64,000 nt of DNA. Origin: Chromatocurvus halotolerans. Its GTDB lineage: Bacteria; Pseudomonadota; Gammaproteobacteria; Pseudomonadales; Halieaceae. The stretch covers positions 1 through 64,000 of the forward strand of contig NZ_SLWX01000016.1 in NCBI RefSeq assembly GCF_004340525.1, given 5' to 3'. Positions within the stretch are counted from its first letter, which is position 1. Every line of letters begins with the position of its first letter. The position numbers and the translations under genes are program-made. The notes under the pieces were generated by a model. It was not told the DNA's origin. It made no database searches and was given only the letters and a program-made list of their open reading frames with translations. This document shows, piece after piece, positions 39,822-62,792 of this stretch.

Positions 39822-40705
39822 TGTCCGGCGACTCTCCGGCCACGGGCGGCGAAACCTCGTCGGGAGAGGGCACAGCGGCGAGGCTGGTGGAGAACCGCCT
39901 GCAGGACGGTATTTTTTATCGCCACTGGTCCCCGCCGGCCCCCGTGGCAGTTCTTCTGCTGGCCCACGGTGCCGGTGAGCACTGTGGCCGCTACCGGGCG
40001 TTTGCCGAGTATTTTTGCGCTCGCAACATAGCCGTTGTGGCACCGGATCACCGCGGTCACGGCGAGTCGCCGGGCCCGAGGGCCCACATCCGCCGCTTCA
40101 GTGAGTTTTTTGCACCGCTGGACGTCCTGTTCGAGCAGATACGGCGCCAGTATCCGTCGTTGCCCGTATTTCTTGTCGGCCACAGCATGGGGGGGCTGAT
40201 TGCGGCCCGGTATCTGCTGTCGCGTCAGGCCAATTTCGCCGGTGCGGTGCTGTCCGCGCCGGCGCTGGAGGTGCCGGATCCCCCCTCACCGATCGCGATC
40301 TGGGTGAACCGCCTCATTTCCCTCGTGTGGCCGACCCTTGGCGTGATGCAGCTGGATGCGTCCGGTATCAGCCGCGACGCGCAGGTGGTTGCGGATTATC
40401 GTGCCGACCCACTGGTGCACAGCGGCAAGTTCAGCGCGCGCCTGGTGACGGAGCTCTTCGGCGCCATGCAGGATGTCGTGCGCGGACGGGACACTATCCG
40501 CCTGCCACTGCTGGTCATGCACGGCGACGCCGACGTCATGACCGCCGTGGACGGCTCGCGGCATTTCGCTGACGGGGTGGGCAGCAGCGATGTGACGCTG
40601 AGAATCTATCCGGGCCTCTACCACGAGATATTCAACGAGCCCGAACGTGAGGCCGTCCTCGACGATCTGTACGACTGGCTGCGGGCGCACGGCGTCGACG
40701 GCTGA
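39818..40705 (+). CDS. Monoacylglycerol-lipase-like alpha/beta hydrolase
   Basis: Serine hydrolase of the Hydrolase_4/lysophospholipase family, 295 residues. Catalytic elements: nucleophile elbow GHSMGG, Asp in VMHGDADVMT and His in YPGLYHEIFNE; HGAGEHCGRY near the N-terminus is the family's HG oxyanion motif. Likely hydrolyses monoacylglycerols or lysolipids in the cytoplasm. The ATGA at 39818-39821 overlaps the ilvE stop, giving the preferred start; M1 at 39800 is possible. rfbD follows one base after its stop. Confidence 0.87.
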   Translation: MMSGDSPATGGETSSGEGTAARLVENRLQDGIFYRHWSPPAPVAVLLLAHGAGEHCGRYRAFAEYFCARNIAVVAPDHRGHGESPGPRAHIRRFSEFFAPLDVLFEQIRRQYPSLPVFLVGHSMGGLIAARYLLSRQANFAGAVLSAPALEVPDPPSPIAIWVNRLISLVWPTLGVMQLDASGISRDAQVVADYRADPLVHSGKFSARLVTELFGAMQDVVRGRDTIRLPLLVMHGDADVMTAVDGSRHFADGVGSSDVTLRIYPGLYHEIFNEPEREAVLDDLYDWLRAHGVDG

Positions 40706-40706
40706 C

Positions 40707-41606
40707 ATGTTGCGCGTTCTCGTTACCGGGGCCCACGGCCAGCTCGGGCGCGAACTGGGTTTCAGCGTGCCGCAGGGTGTCGAATGTGTCGCCCTCGAGC
40801 GTGACGCGCTGGATATCACCGATGCCGCGAGCATTGCCGATGCGCTGTCGCGGGTACGCCCAGCGGCGTTGATCAACGCCGCTGCCTATACCGCGGTCGA
40901 TCGCGCGGAAACGGATCGCGAGGCTGCCCATGCGGTCAACGATGTCGCCGTGGGGCTGCTGGCGACCGCCTGCCGCGAGCGCGATATCCGGATGCTGCAT
41001 GTCTCCACGGACTTTGTTTTCGATGGGGCCTCAGGCCGGCCCTACCAGCCCACAGACACCACCGGCCCCCTGGGCGTCTATGGCGCCAGCAAGCTGGCCG
41101 GTGAGACGCGCCTGCGCAGCGGTGATGCGGGTGGCCTGGTGCTTCGCACCGGCTGGGTATACTCACGCCACGGCGGTAATTTCGTGCTGACCATGCTTCG
41201 CCTGATGGCCGACAAGAGCGAGCTCGGCGTGGTGGCAGATCAGGTCGGGACGCCCACCTGGGCGCGCGGCCTGGCCACGACGCTGTGGGCTTTTGCGGAA
41301 AATCCCGATCTCTGTGGCATTTACCACTGGAGCGATGCCGGCGTCTGCAGCTGGTACGATTTTGCCGTTGCCATCGCAGAAGAGGCCTGTGCCCTCGGAC
41401 TGCTGCAGCGGGCGCCGTACATCCTGCCCATCGCCACGACGGATTACCCGACAGCGGCACGGCGCCCGGCCTGCAGCGTTCTGGACAAGCGCGATACCTG
41501 GCGCGACCTGTCGCTGCAGCCGCTGCACTGGCGCGCGCAGCTGCGCAGGATGCTGCAGGATCTCAAAAACCGGAATCCCGAGGACAGTTCCCATGACCGC
41601 CACTAG
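40707..41606 (+). CDS. rfbD: dTDP-4-dehydrorhamnose reductase
   Basis: Last step of dTDP-L-rhamnose synthesis. The 299-residue short-chain reductase has LVTGAHGQLGREL at the N-terminus, STDFVFDG, the YxxxK pair in YGASKLAGE, and the family HWSDAGVCSWYDFA segment. Second arm of the pathway is on the minus strand at 47.4-48.9 kb. The last 14 nt overlap rfbB, so the two are coupled. Its start directly abuts the hydrolase gene. Confidence 0.95.
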   Translation: MLRVLVTGAHGQLGRELGFSVPQGVECVALERDALDITDAASIADALSRVRPAALINAAAYTAVDRAETDREAAHAVNDVAVGLLATACRERDIRMLHVSTDFVFDGASGRPYQPTDTTGPLGVYGASKLAGETRLRSGDAGGLVLRTGWVYSRHGGNFVLTMLRLMADKSELGVVADQVGTPTWARGLATTLWAFAENPDLCGIYHWSDAGVCSWYDFAVAIAEEACALGLLQRAPYILPIATTDYPTAARRPACSVLDKRDTWRDLSLQPLHWRAQLRRMLQDLKNRNPEDSSHDRH

Positions 41607-42663
41607 AACGCTGATGGTCACGGGTGGGGCCGGCTTCATCGGCGCCAACTTTGCCCACTACTGGATGACGGCCCACCCGGAGGACACGGTCATTGTCTAT
41701 GATGCACTGACCTATGCGGGCAACCGTGCCAGCCTGGCCGCGCTGGAGCCGGCCGACAACTTTCATTTCATTCACGCGGATATCTGCGATCGGGAGCGGG
41801 TGGTGGATTGCCTGAAAACCCACGCGGTGGACACGATCGTGCACTTCGCGGCGGAGAGCCACGTCGATCGCTCCATTACCGGGCCGGATGATTTCATGCG
41901 CACCAATATCCTCGGCACCCATACGCTGCTGGAAGCGGCCAGAGCTGTCTGGCTGGCGGGCGATGGCAGGCCACACCGCTTTCACCACGTGTCTACCGAT
42001 GAGGTCTATGGCTCTCTTGCGGCGGGCGAGGCCGCCTTCCACGAAGGGCATCGCTATGCGCCCAATTCGCCCTATTCGGCGAGCAAGGCGGCGTCTGATC
42101 ATCTGGTGCGCGCCAGCCACCACACCTACGGCCTGCAGGTGACCACCAGCAACTGCTCGAACAATTACGGCCCCTATCACTATCCCGAGAAGCTGATTCC
42201 TCTGTGCCTGACCAATATCCTTCGCGGACGCGCGCTGCCGGTCTATGGCGACGGCAGCAACATCCGCGACTGGCTTTACGTCGAGGATCACTGCCGCGGT
42301 ATCGATAGCGTGCTGGAAAGCGGCCGTGTCGGCGAGGTCTACAACATTGGCGGCAATAACGAGTGGAACAACCTGGATATCGTGCGGCTGCTGTGTGACG
42401 CATTGGACGCGCGCTTCTTCGCAGACAGTCAGCTGGCTCAGCGCTTTCCCGATGCTCCGGCAGCACGCGGTGGCGCCGCCCGTGACCTGGTCACCTTTGT
42501 GCCGGACCGTGCCGGCCACGACTGGCGCTATGCCATCGACGCCGGCAAAGCGGCCAGGGAGCTGGATTACTCGCCGCGGGAGACCTTCGAGAGCGGCATC
42601 GCGCGCACGATCGACTGGTACCTCGACCACACGGCATGGTGGCAGCCACTGCTGCAGGCCTGA
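41593..42663 (+). CDS. rfbB: dTDP-glucose 4,6-dehydratase
   Basis: NAD-dependent second step of dTDP-L-rhamnose synthesis. The 356-residue extended SDR has GGAGFIGANF, DALTYAGNRASL, HFAAESHVDRSI, STDEVYG and the catalytic YSASKAASDHLVRA, then NCSNNYGPYH and YNIGGNNEWNNL. Length and motifs are those of RmlB. AGGA lies about nine bases before the ATG at 41593. It ends three bases from the convergent GGDEF-EAL gene with no visible terminator. Confidence 0.96.
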   Translation: MTATRTLMVTGGAGFIGANFAHYWMTAHPEDTVIVYDALTYAGNRASLAALEPADNFHFIHADICDRERVVDCLKTHAVDTIVHFAAESHVDRSITGPDDFMRTNILGTHTLLEAARAVWLAGDGRPHRFHHVSTDEVYGSLAAGEAAFHEGHRYAPNSPYSASKAASDHLVRASHHTYGLQVTTSNCSNNYGPYHYPEKLIPLCLTNILRGRALPVYGDGSNIRDWLYVEDHCRGIDSVLESGRVGEVYNIGGNNEWNNLDIVRLLCDALDARFFADSQLAQRFPDAPAARGGAARDLVTFVPDRAGHDWRYAIDAGKAARELDYSPRETFESGIARTIDWYLDHTAWWQPLLQA

Positions 42664-42666
42664 GCG

Positions 42667-45600
42667 TCAGCCTGACCCCATCGCCGCATCCCGACCGGAA
42701 GCGGTGTCCGCCGGGAAGGCCCGTGACGGTTGCCAGTCCTTCAGCCAGTTGATGAGTTCCTCCAGCGGCATCGGCCTGGCGAAGGCATAGCCCTGGGCGA
42801 CTTCACAGCCGAGGGCGCGCAGCAGGCGGCAGTGCTCTTCGGTTTCGGCGCCTTCCGCGACGATCTTGATGTCCAGCGCCCTCGCCAGCGACACGATGGC
42901 GCGCAGGATGGCGATGTCCGCGCTCTCACTGGTCATGTTGCGAACGAAGGTCTGGTCGATTTTCAGGGTGTCGATGGGCAGCGCCTGCAGATAGACCAGT
43001 GACGAATAGCCTGAGCCAAAGTCGTCCAGGGCAAAGTGCACGCCGAACTCGGCACAGGCGCTGATGACCTCGGCGACATCGCGGGTATTCTCCAGTGCAC
43101 TGGTCTCCAGTATCTCCAGCTCGAGCTGCCGTCCTTCCAGCATCGGGTGCGCCAGCAGGCGGCGGCGGATGCTCTCGGCAAAGCCCTCCACCAGCAGTTG
43201 CGGCGGTGAAATGTTCACGCTGACCGAGAGGTCGGTACCCGACTCTGCAAGCAGGCTGAGGTCGCGCAGGGCCTGGTCGATGACCCAGTCGCCAAGCTCG
43301 ATCAGTACGCTGTGGTTTTCCAGGGGTATCAGGAAGCGGTTGGGTGGCAGAAAACCCCGATCGGGATGCTGCCAGCGTATGAGGGCCTCGGCACCGTGGA
43401 TCCTTCCGGTGTTGAGGTCAACCTTGGGCTGGTAGTGAAGCCGGAATTCGTTGGCGGCAATCCCCCGCCGCACCTCGTTGACCAGCTGGTGCTTGTCTTC
43501 CAGCAGCTGGTTGCTGGCCTGGTCGAACAGACGGAAGCAATTGCGACCCTCCGTCTTGGCCTGGTACATGGCGTGGTCTGCCTGACGCAGCAGCTGTTCG
43601 GCGTCCAGCTCGTTTTCTCCCAGGGGATAGTGGCTGATGCCAATACTCGCTGTGGGACTGAGCACCTGGCCATCGATAGTGACAGGCTCGGTCGACAGCG
43701 CCAGCAGGCGCTCAACAATGGGCAGGCAGTCGGTTTCCCGCTGCAGATCACTGAGAATGGCGACAAATTCATCGCCTCCGATTCTCGCCAGTGTGTCCCC
43801 CTCCCGCAGCGCGACGTGCATGCGCGCCGCGAGCATTTTCAGCAGCTTGTCACCCACGTCGTGGCCGTGGGTGTCGTTGACCTCCTTGAAGTTGTCGAGA
43901 TCGATGTACGCGACTGCCACCAGGCGGCCCCGCCGCTGGCACTGCTGCATGGCCAGCTTCAGCGATTCCACGCCCAGCGCCCGGTTGGGAACACCGGTCA
44001 GCGCATCGTAGTAGGCCTGGTGCTCCAGCTCCGCCTGCTGGTGCTTGAGCAGGCTGATGTCGGAAAATACCGCAATGTAGCGCGCCACCTCACCTCTGCC
44101 GTCGGTGACGGTATTCACCGAGAGCATCTCGTGGAAGTGCGCGCCGTCCTTGCGCCGGCTGGTGCGTTCGCCGCGCCACTTGCCGGCGGTGCGCAGCTCA
44201 TCGAGCATCCGCTCGTAGAAGTCCTGATCGTGCGCACTGGAGCGCAGAATGGCCGGCGTCTTCCCTTTCACCTCGTCGGGGGTATAGCCGGTGATTTCGC
44301 TGAAGGCGCGGTTGACGTTGATAATGCGCCACTCGGCATCCGCAATAATGATGCCCTCGGCCGCGGTCTCGAAGACTTCTGCTGCCAGCTGCAGTTCGTT
44401 TTCCGCGTTCTTCATGCTGCTGACATCGGCAAAGGAGACGACAATCCGGGAAATACTGCCTGCACTGTCCAGCAGCGGACGGATATTCATCAGTACCCAG
44501 GCGGTCGCACGGGTTCCCTCGCGAGACACGCCGAGCGTCAGGTTGCTGACAGCGCGGCGTTGTCCCAGAACCTGTGACACCGGGTCGGAATCCCTGCTCA
44601 CCTGAGCGCCATCCTTGTCACAGAATGTCCAGCCGAAGTCCCGGAGCTCGCGGCCAATGACATCCCTGGCGCTGACACCGAAGAACTCCGAAGCCATGGG
44701 GTTCATAAGCTGTATGCCGCCGGCACCGCCATAGACAATGATACCGCCGGCAAAACTGTCGAATACGCCCTGCAGCAGCTCCGCGCTGGCGCGTGCCTCA
44801 CGGTCCTTGGCCTCGAGCAGCGCTTCGGCTTCGCTGCGTCGTACCGTGCGCCAGAGCTGTGCCGACAGGAGTTCGACCGTCTTCAGGTCCTGCGCAGAGT
44901 AGGTCGTGCGTTTGTTGCCCACGCCCATGATGATATCGCCGGAACCGGGCTCTACCGGCGATAGCAGCAGCCGTTCCATTGCCCTATCCGCACCGGGCAA
45001 CACCTGCCTGTGAGCGGTGCGGTGATAGTCATTGAGTATCAGTGACTGTGCGCAATCGCTGCTCTCTGCCCACCCGCCACCGGCCAGCAGCGGTTCACTC
45101 TGTAAAGACGCTGACGCGCTGCCGTCGAGTGTTTCGGCGTCCAGCGCATAGGCTTCGATCTGCTGACTTTCACGGTCTATTGTGTAAATGCCGGCGAAGT
45201 GACTGCCGGTCAGCTGGCGGATCACGCTAAGCTGAGTGCGCACGAAGGCGCGGATGTCCACCGGATCAATGTCGGTGGGCATGTCGCGCAGGGCGCGCTC
45301 GCGCCGCGCGTTGAGTTTTTCCTGCTGAAAAAGAGCGCGTATGCGCCGCGTGTAGACCATCAGGAAGCCCGCAAACAGGAACGCCGCGATAGTGATGCTG
45401 ACCCACAGCAGCATGGTCAGGGGTTCGTTTCTCCAGATGTCGAGCCAGGAAATGCCGGAAGTGCGATGGTAGGGGGGCAGACCCAGTTCGGTGAGAATGC
45501 GATGCACTGGCGCGTAGTTCGGTGCGAGGGAAAAATCGCCGTACAGACCACTGATCTCGCGCCGACGCACATCCAGTAGTATCTGCAGAAGCGCATCGGT

Positions 45601-46356
45601 CTGGCTGCCCGTGAGGCTGGGCAGACCGACAAGCGCCCAGCCGGGGTACAGCTGTGTGGACGTTGCCACGGGATAGGCAGACAGGTTCTGCGCATTGATC
45701 ACTCGCAGGGCGTCTGCACCAAATGCCTCTTCGGCGATCAGCTGTTCGAGGATCACGGTCTCGATGAAAGCGACATCGACCTCTCCCGCGAGCAGTGATG
45801 CAATGGCGTTGCGGTGCGAGCCGGTCTCCGTGATCTGCAGGGAACCCGGCAGCTGTGGATCCAGCAGATGCAGCTCATAGAGCGGGGCAGCATAGCCACC
45901 AAAGGAGTCGCGACTGGTGATGCCCACCCGCCGCCCGCGCAAATCTGCGAGTTCGCGGATGTCCGTCGCGTCAGCACGGGCCAGTATCACGCCGCCAACG
46001 CCGCCGACGCGGCCGCCCGGAACCTTGGCCTGGAAAGCCACGAGGGGACGTGTCCGCTGATCGATTTGCTGGGCCTGGGCTGTCTGGTAGGGATTCAGCA
46101 GGGCCGCGTCCAGCTGACGGTTGCGGATTGCCTGCATCAACTCGTCGGGCGGCAGCGGATGCAGGCTGATCCAGTCAATCCCCGAGGCCTGAAAAAATCC
46201 ACGCATGGCGGCAATCTGTTCCCTGAACGCGGAGGACGAGCGTTCCATGCTGATGCCGAGGCGAATGTGCGTCCCGGGTGCGTCCTGCGCGGCGGCCACC
46301 GTGACCTGCGCGGTCACAAGGAGCAGCATGGCGATGATGCGACGCATCCCGATCAC
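42667..46356 (-). CDS. PhnD-like sensor / GAF-like / PAS-PAS / GGDEF-EAL c-di-GMP protein
   Basis: A 1229-residue membrane signalling protein. Order: signal peptide (1-23); periplasmic PhnD/phosphonate-binding-like domain (about 30-295); transmembrane helix (315-335); GAF-like region (about 365-510); two PAS domains (about 525-645 and 655-770); GGDEF domain with intact GGDEF at 860-864 and a product-inhibition I-site REGD (851-854) at the canonical spacing; EAL domain (about 965-1215) with EAL at 990-992, DDFGSGYSS and KIDQTFV. Both cyclase and phosphodiesterase look competent. GTG 46356 overlaps the upstream lipoprotein stop (GTGA) and has GGAG eight bases upstream; ATG 46347 is an alternative. 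Confidence 0.93.
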   Translation of the reverse strand: MIGMRRIIAMLLLVTAQVTVAAAQDAPGTHIRLGISMERSSSAFREQIAAMRGFFQASGIDWISLHPLPPDELMQAIRNRQLDAALLNPYQTAQAQQIDQRTRPLVAFQAKVPGGRVGGVGGVILARADATDIRELADLRGRRVGITSRDSFGGYAAPLYELHLLDPQLPGSLQITETGSHRNAIASLLAGEVDVAFIETVILEQLIAEEAFGADALRVINAQNLSAYPVATSTQLYPGWALVGLPSLTGSQTDALLQILLDVRRREISGLYGDFSLAPNYAPVHRILTELGLPPYHRTSGISWLDIWRNEPLTMLLWVSITIAAFLFAGFLMVYTRRIRALFQQEKLNARRERALRDMPTDIDPVDIRAFVRTQLSVIRQLTGSHFAGIYTIDRESQQIEAYALDAETLDGSASASLQSEPLLAGGGWAESSDCAQSLILNDYHRTAHRQVLPGADRAMERLLLSPVEPGSGDIIMGVGNKRTTYSAQDLKTVELLSAQLWRTVRRSEAEALLEAKDREARASAELLQGVFDSFAGGIIVYGGAGGIQLMNPMASEFFGVSARDVIGRELRDFGWTFCDKDGAQVSRDSDPVSQVLGQRRAVSNLTLGVSREGTRATAWVLMNIRPLLDSAGSISRIVVSFADVSSMKNAENELQLAAEVFETAAEGIIIADAEWRIINVNRAFSEITGYTPDEVKGKTPAILRSSAHDQDFYERMLDELRTAGKWRGERTSRRKDGAHFHEMLSVNTVTDGRGEVARYIAVFSDISLLKHQQAELEHQAYYDALTGVPNRALGVESLKLAMQQCQRRGRLVAVAYIDLDNFKEVNDTHGHDVGDKLLKMLAARMHVALREGDTLARIGGDEFVAILSDLQRETDCLPIVERLLALSTEPVTIDGQVLSPTASIGISHYPLGENELDAEQLLRQADHAMYQAKTEGRNCFRLFDQASNQLLEDKHQLVNEVRRGIAANEFRLHYQPKVDLNTGRIHGAEALIRWQHPDRGFLPPNRFLIPLENHSVLIELGDWVIDQALRDLSLLAESGTDLSVSVNISPPQLLVEGFAESIRRRLLAHPMLEGRQLELEILETSALENTRDVAEVISACAEFGVHFALDDFGSGYSSLVYLQALPIDTLKIDQTFVRNMTSESADIAILRAIVSLARALDIKIVAEGAETEEHCRLLRALGCEVAQGYAFARPMPLEELINWLKDWQPSRAFPADTASGRDAAMGSG

Positions 46357-47294
46357 TCTGGCAGCTCCGGTAGATACGCTGGATCCAGCAGGCCGGCGTT
46401 GCCCTGTGGTGAGTTTGTCACTCCGGCGTTGACGAACAGTTCATTGATGCGACCTACGGCGGCAGACAGCGGGGAATCTCGGTCGAAATAGCCATGCTGC
46501 CTGTCGAGAGTGGGGATCACCACATGGCGCAGTTCTTCCTCGGTGACCCATACGGGATTCCCCCGCAGGCTCGCCAGGCGATAGACCGTATCGACCGGGT
46601 TGTCGTGGACGTGTGACTGCGCTCTCAGAATCGCGCTGACCAGGTTCGCCAGCGCCTTTTTCCGCGTTTTCACCGCATCACTGCGAACCGCAATCACATC
46701 GAAAATGAGTTCCGGGGTGTCCCGGCTCGACAGCAGTGTCACGGCACCGATGTTGCGCAGGGCGCGGGCGTGGGGCTCGTAGGTCGCCACCGCGGCGATA
46801 TCCCCTGCCTCCCAGAGGCCCGGGAGATCCGCGGGCGTTGCTTCCACCAGCTCGATGTCCGAGAGCGCGAGGCCGCCGGAAGCCAGGGCCGCGGTCAGCA
46901 TGAGCATATTGGCGCCGGATGTCTGCAGCGCGATGCGCGCGCCGCGCAGGTCCGCCACCGAGTTGATGCCCGGCCGCACCAGCAGGGAGTCGGCGCCTGA
47001 GGAGACATTCATGACGGCGACGATGGTCAGCGACAGCCCCTGGTCGAGGCCGCGTATGACTTCGTCAAGGGTCAGGCAGGCCGCCTGCAGTTCGCCGCTG
47101 GCGAGCCCCGACAGCGATTCCGCAGCGGATTCCCGGGGGATCAGTTCCACTTCCGGACCAATCCACCCCCACTGCCTTGCCATGGGAATGACGTCGTAAC
47201 CTATCCAGCTGCGGATACCGACCTTGAGCGGCTCCTCGGCGCATCCCGACAGCAACAGTAAAAGCAGCAGGGCGGCCAGACTGCCGCGCCGCAT
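46353..47294 (-). CDS. Substrate-binding lipoprotein (NMT1/SsuA-like), no transporter
   Basis: A 313-residue lipoprotein with a Leu-rich signal and lipobox LSGC, then a periplasmic type II binding fold: VGIRSWIGYDVIPMARQWG, ESLSGLASGELQAACLTLDEV, LRGARIALQTSGANMLML and AVATYEPHARALRNIG. It is the nitrate/sulfonate/taurine-type solute receptor. No ABC permease or ATPase gene is near it. Its stop overlaps the start of the GGDEF-EAL gene, whose own sensor is another solute-binding fold, so the two probably act together. ATG 47294 follows the signal logic; 47327 is possible. Confidence 0.88.
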   Translation of the reverse strand: MRRGSLAALLLLLLLSGCAEEPLKVGIRSWIGYDVIPMARQWGWIGPEVELIPRESAAESLSGLASGELQAACLTLDEVIRGLDQGLSLTIVAVMNVSSGADSLLVRPGINSVADLRGARIALQTSGANMLMLTAALASGGLALSDIELVEATPADLPGLWEAGDIAAVATYEPHARALRNIGAVTLLSSRDTPELIFDVIAVRSDAVKTRKKALANLVSAILRAQSHVHDNPVDTVYRLASLRGNPVWVTEEELRHVVIPTLDRQHGYFDRDSPLSAAVGRINELFVNAGVTNSPQGNAGLLDPAYLPELPE

Positions 47295-47357
47295 CGTGAA
47301 TGTTGCTTCCGGCGATGTTCCCCTCATCCTCCGTTCATACCATGGTCGGGTGTTGCT

Positions 47358-47373
47358 GAACAGGGACCTGTTC
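47358..47373. promoter_or_regulatory. 16-nt inverted repeat GAACAGGGACCTGTTC, operator-like
   Basis: Perfect 7-bp arms (GAACAGG/CCTGTTC) around a 2-nt centre, 64 nt upstream of the substrate-binding lipoprotein start. Such short-centred symmetry is typical of a dimeric repressor site. It is in the 123-nt gap after rfbC. Confidence 0.45.
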
Positions 47374-47398
47374 CCCGGTGTGACGCGTGTCCACATCT

Positions 47399-47414
47399 GC
47401 CGCCAACTGGCGGC
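47399..47414. repeat. Hairpin just after rfbC
   Basis: GCCGCCAACTGGCGGC, perfect 7-bp arms, three bases beyond the rfbC stop on the minus strand. No T-run follows, so a role as terminator is doubtful; it may stabilise or end the rfbAC message with help from other factors. Confidence 0.4.
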
Positions 47415-47417
47415 TCA

Positions 47418-47966
47418 TCAGCCAAGGAGCGGCGCCTCGGCGAGGGCCAGTCCATGGCGGTCCTTGTCCGAGAGTGTCGGGCCCCGGCCGTTTATCAGTG
47501 GCCAGTCGATAGCGATCGCCGGATCGTCCCAGGCCAGGGTGATCTCGCTGTCGGGATGGTAGCGATCGGTGCACTTGTACTGGAAGTCGGCGCTGTCTGA
47601 TATCACGTAAAACCCGTGCGCGAAGCCCGGGGGTATCCACAGCAGGTGATGCTCGATATCGTCGAGTACAGTGCCGAACCACTGGCCGAAGGTCGGTGAG
47701 TCGCGGCGTACGTCAACGGCAACGTCAAAGACGCTGCCCGCTGTGACGCGCACCAGTTTTCCCTGGGTGTGTCGGGTCTGGTAGTGCAGGCCCCGAAGCG
47801 TGCCGCCCTCGGAGCGGCTGTGGTTGTCCTGTACGAATGACAGCTCGAAACCGGCATTGCGGAAGGTGTCGGCGTTCCAGCTTTCGAGGAAGAACCCCCG
47901 CGCGTCGCCGAACACCCGGGGTTTCAGCAGATAAACGCCGGGCAGCGTTGTGGCTTCAAAATTCAT
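47418..47966 (-). CDS. rfbC: dTDP-4-dehydrorhamnose 3,5-epimerase
   Basis: Third step of dTDP-L-rhamnose synthesis, a cupin enzyme of 182 residues. Conserved marks: [36 protein letters not shown] with the catalytic His, [18 protein letters not shown], and [14 protein letters not shown]; the Tyr in YKCTDRYHP completes the site. It overlaps rfbA by 11 nt and is translated after it. Confidence 0.96.
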
Positions 47967-48864
47967 TCAGCATCACGCCGTCGTCGCGCAGCAGACCCTG
48001 CAGATACAGGCCATAACCGCTTTTCTCGAGGGGAGCGGCCAGCCTCTCCAGCTGTGCCGCGTTGATATAACCCATGCGGAAGGCGATTTCCTCCGGACAG
48101 GCAATTTTCAGCCCCTGTCGCTCCTCGACCACACGGATGAAGTTGGCGGCGTCGAGCAGCGAGTTGTGGGTTCCGGTGTCGAGCCACGCCGTGCCGCGAC
48201 TCATAACCTCGACCTGCAGATCGCCGCGGGCAAGATACGCCTTGTTGACGTCGGTAATTTCCAGCTCGCCCCGCCGCGAGGGTGTGATACCCGCGGCGAT
48301 ATCGAGTACGTCGTTGTCATAGAAATACAGCCCGGTAACGGCGTAGTTGGAACGCGGCTGTGCCGGCTTTTCCTCGATGTCCACGGCGGTACCGTCGCTG
48401 CTGAATTCCACCACGCCGTAGCGCTCGGGATCCTGCACGTAGTAGGCGAATACCGAGGCTCCCCGATCGCGCGCCGCGGCGCTTTTCAGGCACTGCGTGA
48501 AGCCGCCGCCGTAAAAGATGTTGTCGCCAAGAACCAGGGCGCAGGGGGCCTTGTCGATAAAGTCCGCGCCCAGAATGAATGCCTGGGCGAGGCCGTCGGG
48601 GCTCGGCTGCACCGTGTATTGCAGGGAGATTCCCCACTGGGAGCCATCCCCGAGAAGATCTGCAAAGGCGCGCTGGTCCCGGGGCGTGGTAATGATCAGT
48701 ATGTCGCGTATCCCCGCGAGCATGAGCGTGGCGAGGGGGTAGTAGATCATGGGCTTGTCGTACACCGGCATTAGCTGCTTGCTCACGGTGCTCGTGAGCG
48801 GGTGTAGCCGGGTGCCGGAGCCACCCGCGAGAATAATGCCCTTGTATGCTGTTTGTACTGCCAT
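47956..48864 (-). CDS. rfbA: Glucose-1-phosphate thymidylyltransferase
   Basis: First step of dTDP-L-rhamnose synthesis. The 302-residue protein has [16 protein letters not shown] (nucleotide loop), [27 protein letters not shown] (metal site), and [16 protein letters not shown]. Length and sequence are of the feedback-regulated RmlA type. Overlaps rfbC. With rfbD-rfbB on plus this gives the full pathway. ATG at 48864; a minus-strand -10 (TATACT, 48907-48912) lies about 40 nt upstream. Confidence 0.96.
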
Positions 48865-59072: not shown

Positions 59073-59669
59073 ATGAAAACGACGGCACATAACAGGTGGC
59101 TGACGGCATGTCTGGGCGTTGCACTGGCAGTCTTTACCGGCGCCGCCAGTGCAGAGTGGGAACTCGATGGCGATCGCTCCCGACTGAGCTTCATTTCGGT
59201 GAAGAACGCCTCCGTCGGTGAGGCGCACACGTTCAAGACACTCGAGGGCTCTGTCAGCGACGATGGCAGCGCCAAGGTCGGGATCGATCTCGACAGCGTC
59301 GAGACCGCCATCCCCATCCGCAATGAGCGCATGCGGGAAATGCTGTTCGAAACGGCTAGCTTCCCCGCCGCCAGCATCACGGCCAGCGTCGACCCCGCGG
59401 TCATTGAAAAGGCGAGGAAAGGGCCCATCGAAGTGACCCTGCCGCTGACGGTGGAACTGCACGGCAGCAGCGCAAGCTATGACGCCGCAATGCTGGTGAG
59501 CGTTGCCGAGGACGGCAGTCTGCACGTGGCGACTCGCGAGCCGATTGTCGTGGATGCCGGTGACTTCGCGCTGGGAGCGGGTGTGACAGCCCTGAAGGAG
59601 GTCGCCGGATTGACGTCCATCAGCACGTCGGTTCCCGTTTCTGCCTATCTGGTATTCGATCCAGGCTGA
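59073..59669 (+). CDS. YceI family protein
   Basis: Periplasmic lipocalin-like protein of 198 residues. Signal peptide MKTTAHNRWLTACLGVALAVFTGAASA, then WELDGDRSRLSFISVKNASVGEAHTF, the YceI family opening (which binds polyisoprenoids in characterised homologs); the rest is beta-barrel. Ligand unknown. An AGGAGAAG at 59059-59066 precedes the ATG. It overlaps the 3' end of the convergent heme-repeat gene by 25 nt. Confidence 0.88.
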   Translation: MKTTAHNRWLTACLGVALAVFTGAASAEWELDGDRSRLSFISVKNASVGEAHTFKTLEGSVSDDGSAKVGIDLDSVETAIPIRNERMREMLFETASFPAASITASVDPAVIEKARKGPIEVTLPLTVELHGSSASYDAAMLVSVAEDGSLHVATREPIVVDAGDFALGAGVTALKEVAGLTSISTSVPVSAYLVFDPG

Positions 59670-61957
59670 GGCTGGCGGCTGGCGGCAAGCTGCCGCAGGC
59701 GCTGCAGCCACTGTGGATAAGCGGGGTTGTCAGGCACCAGCGTTACCAGAGAGCGTGCATGAACGATGGCATCGTCCAGATCACCCGCCGCAGCCGCGTA
59801 CTCACTCAGCGCCATGACCACGGCCGGGTTACCCGGTCGCGCACGGTCCAGCGCTCGCAGGGCTTCCCGGCCTTTTTCCTGCATCCCGCTGCTGTAAAGC
59901 GCCACGGCGTTGACATAGCGATGCCGCCAGCCCGCGCTTTCGCGCTCTGCGGCTGCCTGCAGCAGCTCTGAGCCCCGGTCGCGGTTGCCCGTGCGAATCT
60001 CCAGCAGCCCCAGTGCATGCAGGGCATTGCCGTCGTCCGGCGACTGATCCAGCAATGTCTCCAGTTCCCGTCGAGCGGCGTCTTCGTCGCCCCGCTGTCG
60101 CTGCAGGTCGGCGAGGTTGAGGCGCGCAGCCGCCAGTGACGGGTCGAGCGCCAGCGCCTCGCGATAGGCCGACTCCGCCCGCGGCAGGTCGTTGCGTGCG
60201 TGGTGGAACACGCCCAGCTGCAGCTGTGTTTCCGGCATGTCGGCATGCCGCGCCTGCACCGCGAGGTACTCATCGAACAGCTGCAGAAGATGCTCGCGCT
60301 GCGCCGGGCTGACGCGGCCGAGCGGAATGTCCGCAAGATTTTCGGCCAGGGCCATGCGCACGGCGGCGACCGGATCATCCCGCAGCGGATACAGCAGCTC
60401 GAGTCGCTGGCGCGGATCGGCGCCAGCGAGGCTGCGTACGGCACTGCTTCTCAGCAAGGGGTCGGCGGAGCGCAGCATCGGCGTCGCCGTGGGCGCGGCG
60501 TTCTGGCCCGCAAGGGTTTCGAGTGCCGTTGCACGCCAAATGTTTGCAAGCGCGGGATCCGCGATCTGGGCAAGCACCTCTCCGCGGGCGCGGGCGTCAC
60601 CTTCGCGGAGTTGCTGCACGGCCAGCGCCGGGTGCGGGCCGTCGGTATCCGGCGCCATCTCCCAGGCGCGCAGGGATTCCAGCGCCCACTCGCTGTCGCG
60701 TTCGCTGTGGCACTGCGTGCAGGCGTTCGGAGTCCCGAGCACGAGGGTCAGGTCAGGCCGCGGAATCCGCATGCTGTGATCGCGGCGGTCATCAACACCC
60801 ATGTAGCGCTTTGCCGGCATGTGGCAGTTCACACACTGCGCGCCGCTGCCCGTAGGATGACGGTGGTGCTGCTGACTGTCGTAGGCGGCGGGGCTGTGGC
60901 ACTGGGCACACAGCGCGTTGCCCTCGGCACGCAGCCGGTTGTTGTGGGGTTCGTGGCAGTTGCTGCACACGACGCCGGCGCGCTGCATGCGGCTCTGCAG
61001 GAAGGAACCGTGGACAAACACTTCATCGTCGATCTGTCCGTCCGGGTGATACAGGGGCGGCTGAGGCAGCGCCAGGCGGTGGGTGTCGAGGAGATCAGCG
61101 CCGTAGTGGTAGTCGCCAAGCGGCCCACGCCGGGAGTGGCAGCGCGCGCAGGCATTGATCTGGGTATCCGCCTGCAGTGGCTTGTCACGGGTGGCTATCG
61201 CGGCGTCCCCGGCGAACTGCCAGTGACCGCGTTGGCCCAGATCCACATCGAGCCCGGCGCCGGGTTTGCGTGCCCCTGATGGCACTACGCTTTGCATCTG
61301 CCTCACGTGGTTCGCGCCCGGGCCGTGACAGGCCTCGCAGCCGACGCTGATCTCGCGGTAGGTGGTGGCGTAGCGGCGCTCGCTAGCGCTGTAGCCTTTA
61401 TCTACCTGCGTGCTGTGGCACTCTGCACAGCGCGAATTCCAGTTCTGGTAAGGGCCTGTCCAGTGCAGCGGGTCAGTGTGGTCGATGGCCTCATCCGGGT
61501 AGAGGGAGTACCAGCGCTGGCCACCGTCCTCGGCTGGCCGTGCATCCCAGGCAATGCCCAGCGCCTGCAGTCGGCCGTCGTCCAGTGGCAGCAGGTACTG
61601 CTGCAGCGGATAGACGCCAAAGACCTGGCGCACGGGGAAGTCGCGCAGCGCGCCGTCGGCGCCGTCGGTGTGCACCATGAAGTGCTCGCCGTCGCGGTAG
61701 AATCGGGTCGTTACGCCCTGATGGGTAACGCTCACGTCGCTGAAGTCGCCGAGCACGGTTTCCTCGGAGGCCTCCTGCATCGCCAGCTGATGATGTGATC
61801 CCTGCCACTGCTCATAGGCATCGACATGACATCCCGCGCAGCGCTCACTGCCAACAAAGGCTTCCGCCGGCGCCGCCTCCCTGGCCTCGATCGGAACGGC
61901 GACAGGCAAGGTCAGCGCGACCAGCAGAGCGATCAGCAGGTGTGATGGTGTGGTCAG
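59645..61957 (-). CDS. Eight-heme cytochrome c fused to HEAT and TPR repeats
   Basis: A 770-residue exported protein. Eight CxxCH motifs lie at about 40, 177, 207, 270, 331, 350, 375 and 413 (CAGCH, CAECH, CEACH, CARCH, CSNCH, CAQCH, CVNCH, CTQCH), followed by HEAT-like repeats (about 440-560) and tetratricopeptide repeats (about 565-760; ARLNLADLQRQRGDEDAARR). The signal peptide TTPSHLLIALLVALTLPVAVPIEA is clear. GGAGG (61964-61968) is six bases before a CTG at 61957, which looks like the start; the next upstream ATG is at 62074. It is a periplasmic multiheme protein of unknown redox role, partly like cytochrome c554/nrf-type families. Confidence 0.85.
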   Translation of the reverse strand: MTTPSHLLIALLVALTLPVAVPIEAREAAPAEAFVGSERCAGCHVDAYEQWQGSHHQLAMQEASEETVLGDFSDVSVTHQGVTTRFYRDGEHFMVHTDGADGALRDFPVRQVFGVYPLQQYLLPLDDGRLQALGIAWDARPAEDGGQRWYSLYPDEAIDHTDPLHWTGPYQNWNSRCAECHSTQVDKGYSASERRYATTYREISVGCEACHGPGANHVRQMQSVVPSGARKPGAGLDVDLGQRGHWQFAGDAAIATRDKPLQADTQINACARCHSRRGPLGDYHYGADLLDTHRLALPQPPLYHPDGQIDDEVFVHGSFLQSRMQRAGVVCSNCHEPHNNRLRAEGNALCAQCHSPAAYDSQQHHRHPTGSGAQCVNCHMPAKRYMGVDDRRDHSMRIPRPDLTLVLGTPNACTQCHSERDSEWALESLRAWEMAPDTDGPHPALAVQQLREGDARARGEVLAQIADPALANIWRATALETLAGQNAAPTATPMLRSADPLLRSSAVRSLAGADPRQRLELLYPLRDDPVAAVRMALAENLADIPLGRVSPAQREHLLQLFDEYLAVQARHADMPETQLQLGVFHHARNDLPRAESAYREALALDPSLAAARLNLADLQRQRGDEDAARRELETLLDQSPDDGNALHALGLLEIRTGNRDRGSELLQAAAERESAGWRHRYVNAVALYSSGMQEKGREALRALDRARPGNPAVVMALSEYAAAAGDLDDAIVHARSLVTLVPDNPAYPQWLQRLRQLAASRQPQPGSNTR

Positions 61958-62072
61958 GGTTATCCTCCAGGACGGGATGTATCGCAGGGCATCATCCCCC
62001 GCGGGCGCTATGGACAGCAAGCGACAGCGGTTTACCCTGTAGACCGACACATCGCCACGACAGAGGACAGTC

Positions 62073-62792
62073 ATGAAGCTTGGCATTTTGCGCACCGATA
62101 CCGTACGGCCGGAGTGGTCCGCCCGCTTCGGCGAGTATCCGGACATGTTCATGCGGCTACTGGGTCGGCTGGATCCGTCGCTGGAGTTCCGGGTGTACCA
62201 CGTGGAGCGCCAGGAGTATCCCGACGATATCGATGAGGTGGATGCCTACCTGATTACCGGCAGCAAGTTCAGTGTCTACGATGACGAGCCCTGGATTTAT
62301 CGTCTTGCGGACTTCGTGCGGGAACTGCACGCAAGACGCAAGACGATGATCGGTATCTGCTTCGGTCACCAGATGATTGCCCACGCCCTGGGCGGTGAGA
62401 CGCGCAAGTCGCATCGCGGCTGGGGCGTGGGGTTGCATCGTCATCGGCTTCACGGCCGTCCGGACTGGTCTGATGATGGTGACGCGCAGTTCCGGATTCT
62501 GGTCAGCCACCAGGATCAGGTGGAGCGCGTGGCACCGGGTACGGAGGTGCTGGCGGGCAGCGATTTCTGTGAGAATGCGGTGTGCCAGATCGGCGATCAC
62601 ATCCTCACCTTCCAGGGGCATCCCGAGTTCGAGCCCGATTATGCCCGCGAAATCATGCAGCTGCGCCGTGAAACCATCGGCGAGGAGACCTACCAGGCGG
62701 GAATGGACTCCCTTGACGAGCAGCCGGAGACAGAGCGTATCGGCCGCTGGCTGCTGGCCTTCCTGCATAAGCGGGACCGGGCCGTTGCCTGA
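62073..62792 (+). CDS. Class I glutamine amidotransferase-like protein
   Basis: A 239-residue GATase1 protein with nucleophile elbow GICFGHQ (Cys96) and the His-x-Glu pair in FQGHPEFEPDY. It resembles stand-alone amidotransferases of the GMP-synthase-like (GuaA N-terminal) group, including gamma-glutamyl-type hydrolases, but no acceptor partner is next to it, so the reaction is not determined. The HRLHGRPDWSDDGDAQFRILVSHQDQV segment is typical. It is divergent from the multiheme gene across 115 nt. Confidence 0.85.
   Translation: MKLGILRTDTVRPEWSARFGEYPDMFMRLLGRLDPSLEFRVYHVERQEYPDDIDEVDAYLITGSKFSVYDDEPWIYRLADFVRELHARRKTMIGICFGHQMIAHALGGETRKSHRGWGVGLHRHRLHGRPDWSDDGDAQFRILVSHQDQVERVAPGTEVLAGSDFCENAVCQIGDHILTFQGHPEFEPDYAREIMQLRRETIGEETYQAGMDSLDEQPETERIGRWLLAFLHKRDRAVA

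Follow-up and report, generated by a model that had tools for sequence, protein, structure and literature searches.

The analysed stretch of DNA (the window) comprises the first 64,000 nucleotides of contig NZ_SLWX01000016.1 of Chromatocurvus halotolerans. Its minus strand carries two adjoining genes (Table 1), encoding a solute-binding lipoprotein and a membrane transducer with a periplasmic sensor and with the GGDEF and EAL domains of cyclic diguanylate (c-di-GMP) synthesis and breakdown. A reading previously made from the letters alone (the sequence-only reading) had taken them for a two-gene unit with a GTGA overlap, and the coordinates and frames that it gave are correct.

Table 1. Features of the lipoprotein-transducer locus and its flanks (positions in the window).
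Feature	Position	Strand	Details	Basis
Lipoprotein	46353..47294	-	313 amino acids; NMT1/SsuA-type solute-binding domain	Reading frame and Pfam
GTGA overlap	46353..46356	-	four bases; lipoprotein stop and enzyme start	Sequence
Transducer	42667..46356	-	1229 amino acids, GTG start; signal peptide or anchor, PhnD-like periplasmic domain, transmembrane helix, GAF, PAS, PAS, GGDEF, EAL	
PhnD-like (Phosphonate-bd) periplasmic sensor domain	45442..46287	-	residues ~24-305	Pfam, 99.9 bits (cut-off 27)
Single transmembrane helix	45355..45411	-	residues ~316-334	Hydropathy
GGDEF domain	43540..44016	-	residues 781-939; GGDEF motif at 860, I-site RxxD at 851	Pfam and motifs
EAL domain	42772..43479	-	residues 960-1195; usual catalytic motifs present	Pfam and motifs
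rmlD and rmlB	40647..42663	+	convergent with the pair; one flank of the presumed insertion site	
rmlC and rmlA	47418..48864	-	upstream of the pair, same strand; other flank, outside the conserved unit	

The lipoprotein gene runs from an ATG at 47294 (an earlier in-frame ATG lies at 47330) to a stop at 46353, and its product contains an LSGC lipobox with C18 as the cysteine. Its Pfam scores exceed the cut-offs of both NMT1_2 (PF13379; 58.9 bits, cut-off 24.7) and NMT1 (PF09084; 47.0 bits, cut-off 20.5), which, together with the lipobox, bears out the earlier assignment to the NMT1/SsuA type. The protein is related to the NCBIfam SsuA_fam subfamily (TIGR01728) and falls outside it (67.6 vs. 163.5 bits required); it also scores below the curated cut-off of TIGR03427, a guanidine/urea-carboxylase-associated binding protein (53.7 vs. 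333.9 bits). The solved structures nearest to it by profile are taurine- and sulfonate-binding proteins.

The transducer is a GGDEF-EAL protein, predicted to be bifunctional from its intact GGDEF, I-site and EAL motifs. Between the membrane helix and the GGDEF domain, Pfam places a GAF_2 domain (residues 367-504) and two PAS stretches (532-647 and 661-767); the sequence-only reading had the length and the intact motifs right and overlooked the GAF domain and the second PAS. The curated cut-off of the model Phosphodiesterase DibA (NF045675) was not reached (551.4 vs. 980 bits; best stretch, residues 652-1201). By profile, the nearest solved relatives of the PhnD domain are PtxB and phosphonate-binding proteins. 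In the alignment the Ser/Thr-rich stretch of PtxB stands opposite an LGGY stretch of the PhnD domain, so a PtxB-like ligand cannot be assumed. The lipoprotein and the PhnD domain had been described as two different folds, which is overstated: NMT1 and Phosphonate-bd are both families of the periplasmic-binding-protein (PBP) clan, and the two proteins score weakly with each other's models (PhnD part against NMT1, 20.3 bits and, in a second scan, 23.8, which is above the cut-off; lipoprotein against Phosphonate-bd, 17.4 bits). They would rather represent two branches within one fold class.

To see how the pair is distributed, homologs of the lipoprotein were collected at three levels: (i) in the order, where relatives occurred in 185 of 390 genomes, 60 loci were fetched from the top 63 places below that of the window itself (ranks 37, 42 and 62 are skipped); (ii) in the class, 62 loci from 369 genomes, including all places with E <= 4.1e-60 and leaving out some weaker ones; (iii) in the phylum, 20 of the listed places from 398 genomes, picked for different families. 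Family members were defined by a model built from order-level members with a threshold of at least 280 bits. The hidden Markov models behind the GGDEF, EAL, kinase, permease and ATPase calls were derived from these loci and are not curated; Pfam searches covered 19 order-level partner proteins and 5 undetected ones. One locus (L184) gave no lipoprotein match in the called frames and was omitted from the trees.

Among the 102 loci of at least 280 bits, the gene that follows in the same orientation encoded a signalling protein in 94 (order, 43/46; class, 39/44; phylum, 12/12) and a component of an ATP-binding cassette (ABC) transporter in none. The remaining eight gave no partner call: L042 (broken frames, with a kinase fragment downstream), L054 and L125 (contig end), L066, L133 (HAMP-PAS, no output domain), L144 (PhnD remnant), L145 and L148. 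As order-level members of this same group went into the model, a ranking by plain similarity to the window's protein matters as a check. In the order search, ranks 1-36 comprised 33 signalling loci, three without a call and no ABC locus, the first of which appeared at rank 41. ABC-linked relatives (18 at order and class level, three at phylum level) score at most 211 bits, and a simple lipobox rule is satisfied at 84 of 90 signalling loci of order and class vs. 2 of 18 ABC loci, one of these (L081) apparently falsely. An overlap of four bases like that in the window is present at 22/43 signalling loci of the order and 22/47 of the class (44/90).

The arrangement thus recurs across many genera, beyond chance, and the lipoprotein-signalling pair is real and widespread. 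This agrees with the earlier description of receptor and enzyme as a unit that has no transporter, ABC genes not adjoining those of the lipoprotein's close homologs, and goes against the remark that the pair looked unusual. The gene-neighbour search proposed at the time turned out opposite to the outcome named as fatal to the idea, namely homologs always beside ABC genes and no co-occurrence of the two genes.

Partners at order and class loci of at least 280 bits end in GGDEF-EAL (45), GGDEF (21) or histidine kinase (16) domains, and all 12 phylum-level partners above the threshold are kinases. At four loci (L128, L130, L163 and L164) the lipoprotein gene is followed by that of a histidine kinase and then, directly or one gene on, by that of an EAL protein; this kinase version may also end in c-di-GMP. 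Another locus (L183) has a tandem pair of lipoprotein-family genes ahead of a kinase of 1306 amino acids. Fusions of the two partners ("Rosetta stone" proteins) were sought and rejected, the long frames at L124, L125, L163 and L053 being upstream extensions with the domain at the C-terminal end. A conserved third gene was likewise rejected: the neighbour clusters resemble lineage synteny or mixed families, and no cluster keeps one fixed place throughout the family.

Alternatively, the lipoprotein could serve an ABC importer whose genes lie elsewhere, as a displaced binding protein that is found next to the enzyme only incidentally. The genome (99.99% complete, 45 contigs) does contain 18 places with an ABC permease (PF00528), and the 18 ABC-linked homologs have the same motif residues; yet none of these permease places is on the window's contig (77,091 bases), in keeping with the earlier statement that no ABC permease is nearby. 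The permease and ATPase genes that an ABC-importer binding protein would be expected to have beside it are absent here. The genome holds no other NMT1 protein, the transducer itself giving just a weak match, and no second clear PhnD protein, one more place being below the cut-off. A sole clear NMT1 protein on a permease-free contig makes a stray importer subunit of its own kind unlikely, and the prevalence of signalling neighbours and many overlapping gene pairs, with no ABC neighbour among the loci of at least 280 bits, speaks against displacement as well. We regard this explanation as highly improbable. A contig scan with the lipoprotein returned a single locus (L031), a binding protein next to ABC-like genes.

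Partner properties were mapped on a tree of 90 lipoproteins (89 and that of the window), with labels shuffled 1000 times. The label "PhnD sensor in partner" (23 rows) needs two changes (shuffled mean 20.5, minimum 12), and the label "kinase partner" (20 rows) needs 14 (mean 18.2, minimum 14). L143 accounts for one of the two sensor changes; its partner keeps both PhnD ends around a large internal deletion. In the related genomes of this locus and L144, the partner has a shortened or fragmentary PhnD sensor next to an apparently intact lipoprotein gene. If lipoprotein and sensor are in contact, the divergence of the lipoprotein should track the sensor and not the GGDEF domain. The partial correlation between lipoprotein and sensor distances with GGDEF removed is 0.74 for 20 PhnD pairs and 0.57 for 49 other pairs; that between lipoprotein and GGDEF with the sensor removed is 0.32 and 0.05, respectively. 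As judged from these sequence comparisons, the conserved unit of the family is the lipoprotein together with the periplasmic sensor domain, and the cytoplasmic output (GGDEF-EAL, GGDEF or histidine kinase) is exchangeable.

We therefore consider it likely that the pair forms one receptor, in which the lipoprotein is a dedicated ligand-binding subunit acting via the periplasmic domain of its partner and the outputs are exchangeable. This reading rests on the recurrence of the pair, the absence of a transporter, the co-segregation with the sensor, the distance correlations, the retained motif residues (below) and the precedent of NspS-MbaA; ligand binding, physical contact, the direction of the response and the ligand are those of its parts that we infer. 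In the window, the lipoprotein would bind a small solute and close, and in its closed (or else its empty) state it would dock onto the PhnD-like domain of the transducer. The change would travel via the single transmembrane helix and the GAF-PAS-PAS chain, and the balance between synthesis by GGDEF and breakdown by EAL would shift, setting the c-di-GMP level.

Several observations weigh against such a receptor. Of the 28 order-level members behind the family model, 26 have a called signalling partner and none an ABC one, so that counts at the 280-bit threshold lean toward the claim. Linkage could explain part of the co-segregation, since the sensor is encoded in the 5' half of the transducer gene, beside the lipoprotein gene: recombination in mid-gene would keep the two together without any contact. 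The window's lipoprotein deviates from several residues common in the family (N96, Q124, A167 and L188), and a single-sequence AlphaFold2 model of the PhnD domain had a mean predicted local distance difference test (pLDDT) score of 34.5 and gave no usable fold or pocket. Of 82 order- and class-level lipoproteins just 4 have aspartate at position +2, and a short tether, with a median of 13 residues, joins the cysteine to the first conserved motif. Lipoproteins without Asp at +2 are, by the sorting rule of E. coli, directed to the outer membrane, which would make contact with a sensor in the inner membrane harder. Finally, 17 PhnD transducers of the order have no lipoprotein gene in front; on a tree of PhnD domains they are intermixed with the paired ones (8 changes vs. 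a shuffled mean of 13.1) and their conserved residues are much alike, so the lipoprotein is not obligatory for a PhnD sensor. PhnD-like sensors that lack a preceding lipoprotein gene and are joined to GGDEF(-EAL) or histidine-kinase outputs lie at L106-L113 and L115-L122, and one genome (G074) has five PhnD-like places.

Two other explanations draw on these points. The PhnD domain might be the true sensor, with a ligand of its own, and the lipoprotein a scavenger that merely modulates it by buffering the ligand or handing it over, with no signalling complex. The unpaired transducers, the lipid anchor at non-Asp +2 sites and the occurrence of a PhnD-type sensor in TtrS-like kinases (match to the TtrS model, E 4.1e-18, residues 63-357) fit this. 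Against it, the partners at 68 of 90 order and class loci of at least 280 bits have no PhnD match (loci without a partner call counted in), most having another, small sensor, so the role of the lipoprotein is independent of PhnD; moreover, lipoprotein and sensor diverge in step. We judge this explanation unlikely. The commoner sensor is a small periplasmic domain without a clear Pfam match; its profile gave weak PDB matches only (best E 0.022), one of 14 members matched sCache weakly, and from the alignment it looks like a single Cache domain. The "two-layer sensor" of the sequence-only reading thus holds for the 22 of 90 loci with a PhnD layer and does not carry over to the majority with the small Cache-like domain, nor to the transducers that lack the lipoprotein.

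The second of these explanations makes the lipoprotein a non-binding accessory or reporter of envelope stress, its binding fold a relic. Predicted sorting to the outer membrane by the +2 residues would suit it, and an outer-membrane lipoprotein serving a kinase has a reported precedent in QseG and QseE. The motif residues are, however, kept as strongly as in transporter homologs, which is unexpected for a relic, and we give this explanation little credence.

The receptor reading leads to the question of the ligand. Thirteen positions (W30, G32, Y33, T75, D77, E78, S98, G100, D102, P174, S190, P194 and D199) are each at least 91% conserved in 90 signalling lipoproteins; they are identical in all six binding proteins of GMC-linked ABC operons (L071, L073, L074, L082, L083 and L090), and most are also kept in 12 other ABC binding proteins. 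They look like a working binding site and would presumably line the pocket. The GMC-linked operons include a choline-dehydrogenase-like enzyme at L073 and similar-sized genes in some others. Among the 12 other ABC loci, urea-amidolyase-associated genes were identified at two (L072 and L081), and six (five of 11 in one scan, and L173) have a guanidine-I riboswitch just upstream of the binding-protein gene. Guanidine importers under the control of this riboswitch have been reported (PMC12186494). Since the motif residues are common to ABC homologs, some of them under guanidine-I riboswitches, the family pocket is probably one for a small nitrogenous ligand, and a guanidine-, urea- or choline-type compound, a guess taken from the ABC relatives, leads the candidates. 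A plain guanidine sensor is disfavoured: no guanidine-I riboswitch (RF00442) was found in the window's genome or at 14 signalling loci, and the signalling group's Y33, L76, D77 and E78 are not shared by the guanidine-type importers. An Rfam scan of the window at gathering thresholds found no RNA element. More broadly, and as a tentative proposal that we think rather doubtful as a whole, the lipoproteins may be a widespread and so far undescribed receptor class, an offshoot or sister group of importer subunits for guanidine or quaternary amines, that informs a c-di-GMP enzyme or histidine kinase of a small nitrogenous compound outside the cell; in the window's branch the lipoprotein would be stacked on the PhnD-like domain, a second flytrap of the same clan, and such a hetero-flytrap could respond to two ligands simultaneously before c-di-GMP is set.

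The rhamnose genes on both sides of the pair had suggested an effect on surface polysaccharide. In 29 family relatives whose rmlC locus was fetched, rmlB and rmlC abut within ~150 bases in 16 and lie ~450-1000 bases apart in five; in the remaining eight rmlB is not within the fetched flank (up to 1.5 kb). No rml gene was found at any of the 142 loci fetched for the lipoprotein family, the window as a positive control giving all four. The empty junctions in relatives and the rml-free lipoprotein loci lead us to reject the proposed link. Most likely, insertion at a convergent rmlB/rmlC junction brought the pair to its present place; its neighbours are uninformative about its output. The five wider gaps at the position of the window's junction (42664-47417) were seen at L245, L247, L258, L261 and L268, and the junction may be a frequent place of insertion. 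No consensus promoter was found between rmlC and the lipoprotein gene; read-through from rmlAC is thus conceivable. Further along the window (59648-62152) lies a gene for a protein of 835 amino acids with multihaem cytochrome motifs and TPR repeats.

The inputs of most enzymes of c-di-GMP, a signal by which bacteria choose between sticking and swimming, are unknown. The pair looks like a widespread plug-in sensor whose signalling end is swapped among related bacteria, and because the input half is conserved and the output half exchanged, the identification of a single ligand would point to inputs of many cyclases, phosphodiesterases and kinases together. Kinship to importers controlled by guanidine riboswitches provides a short list of first ligands to try. 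A full-text search of the open-licence literature returned no paper joining NMT1, GGDEF and substrate-binding protein, or PhnD, GGDEF and diguanylate cyclase, and a wider search of titles and abstract beginnings of open-licence papers returned none describing the lipoprotein-signalling family.

Among known systems, the closest transporter relatives found are the ABC binding proteins of urea-carboxylase-associated (TIGR03427-like) operons and those of GMC-linked operons, which share the motif residues and differ in mostly lacking a lipobox and in being followed by permease and ATPase genes. In ScrB-ScrC of Vibrio parahaemolyticus a binding protein feeds a GGDEF-EAL protein, the same plan as here; the binding protein is of another family, and the genes form a three-gene unit with a signal synthase. 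Receptors driven by binding proteins are a recognised general mechanism (PMC9602780). According to a 2022 review (PMC8846402), SBP_bac_3 is one of 27 families of the PBP clan and the sole one studied in c-di-GMP networks, and RmcA of Pseudomonas aeruginosa, a c-di-GMP protein, has such a domain fused to it as sensor. The transducer resembles RmcA, as portrayed there, in having a PBP-clan domain fused as sensor; it differs in that the domain is Phosphonate-bd and that a second, separate binding protein is added. NspS is a polyamine binder outside the NMT1/SsuA families. In NspS-MbaA of Vibrio cholerae and Sinorhizobium meliloti, the state of the binding protein sets the cyclase or phosphodiesterase mode and the genes overlap, as reported (PMC8967002, PMC9993111). 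The window's pair resembles that system in its overlap of a binding-protein gene with the gene of a GGDEF-EAL membrane protein and in its gene content, a binding protein and a membrane transducer that has a periplasmic domain, with no transporter. Three things set it apart from NspS-MbaA: its binding protein belongs to the NMT1 type and is a lipoprotein, a further binding-protein domain serves as the partner's sensor, and histidine kinases are also found as partners within the family.

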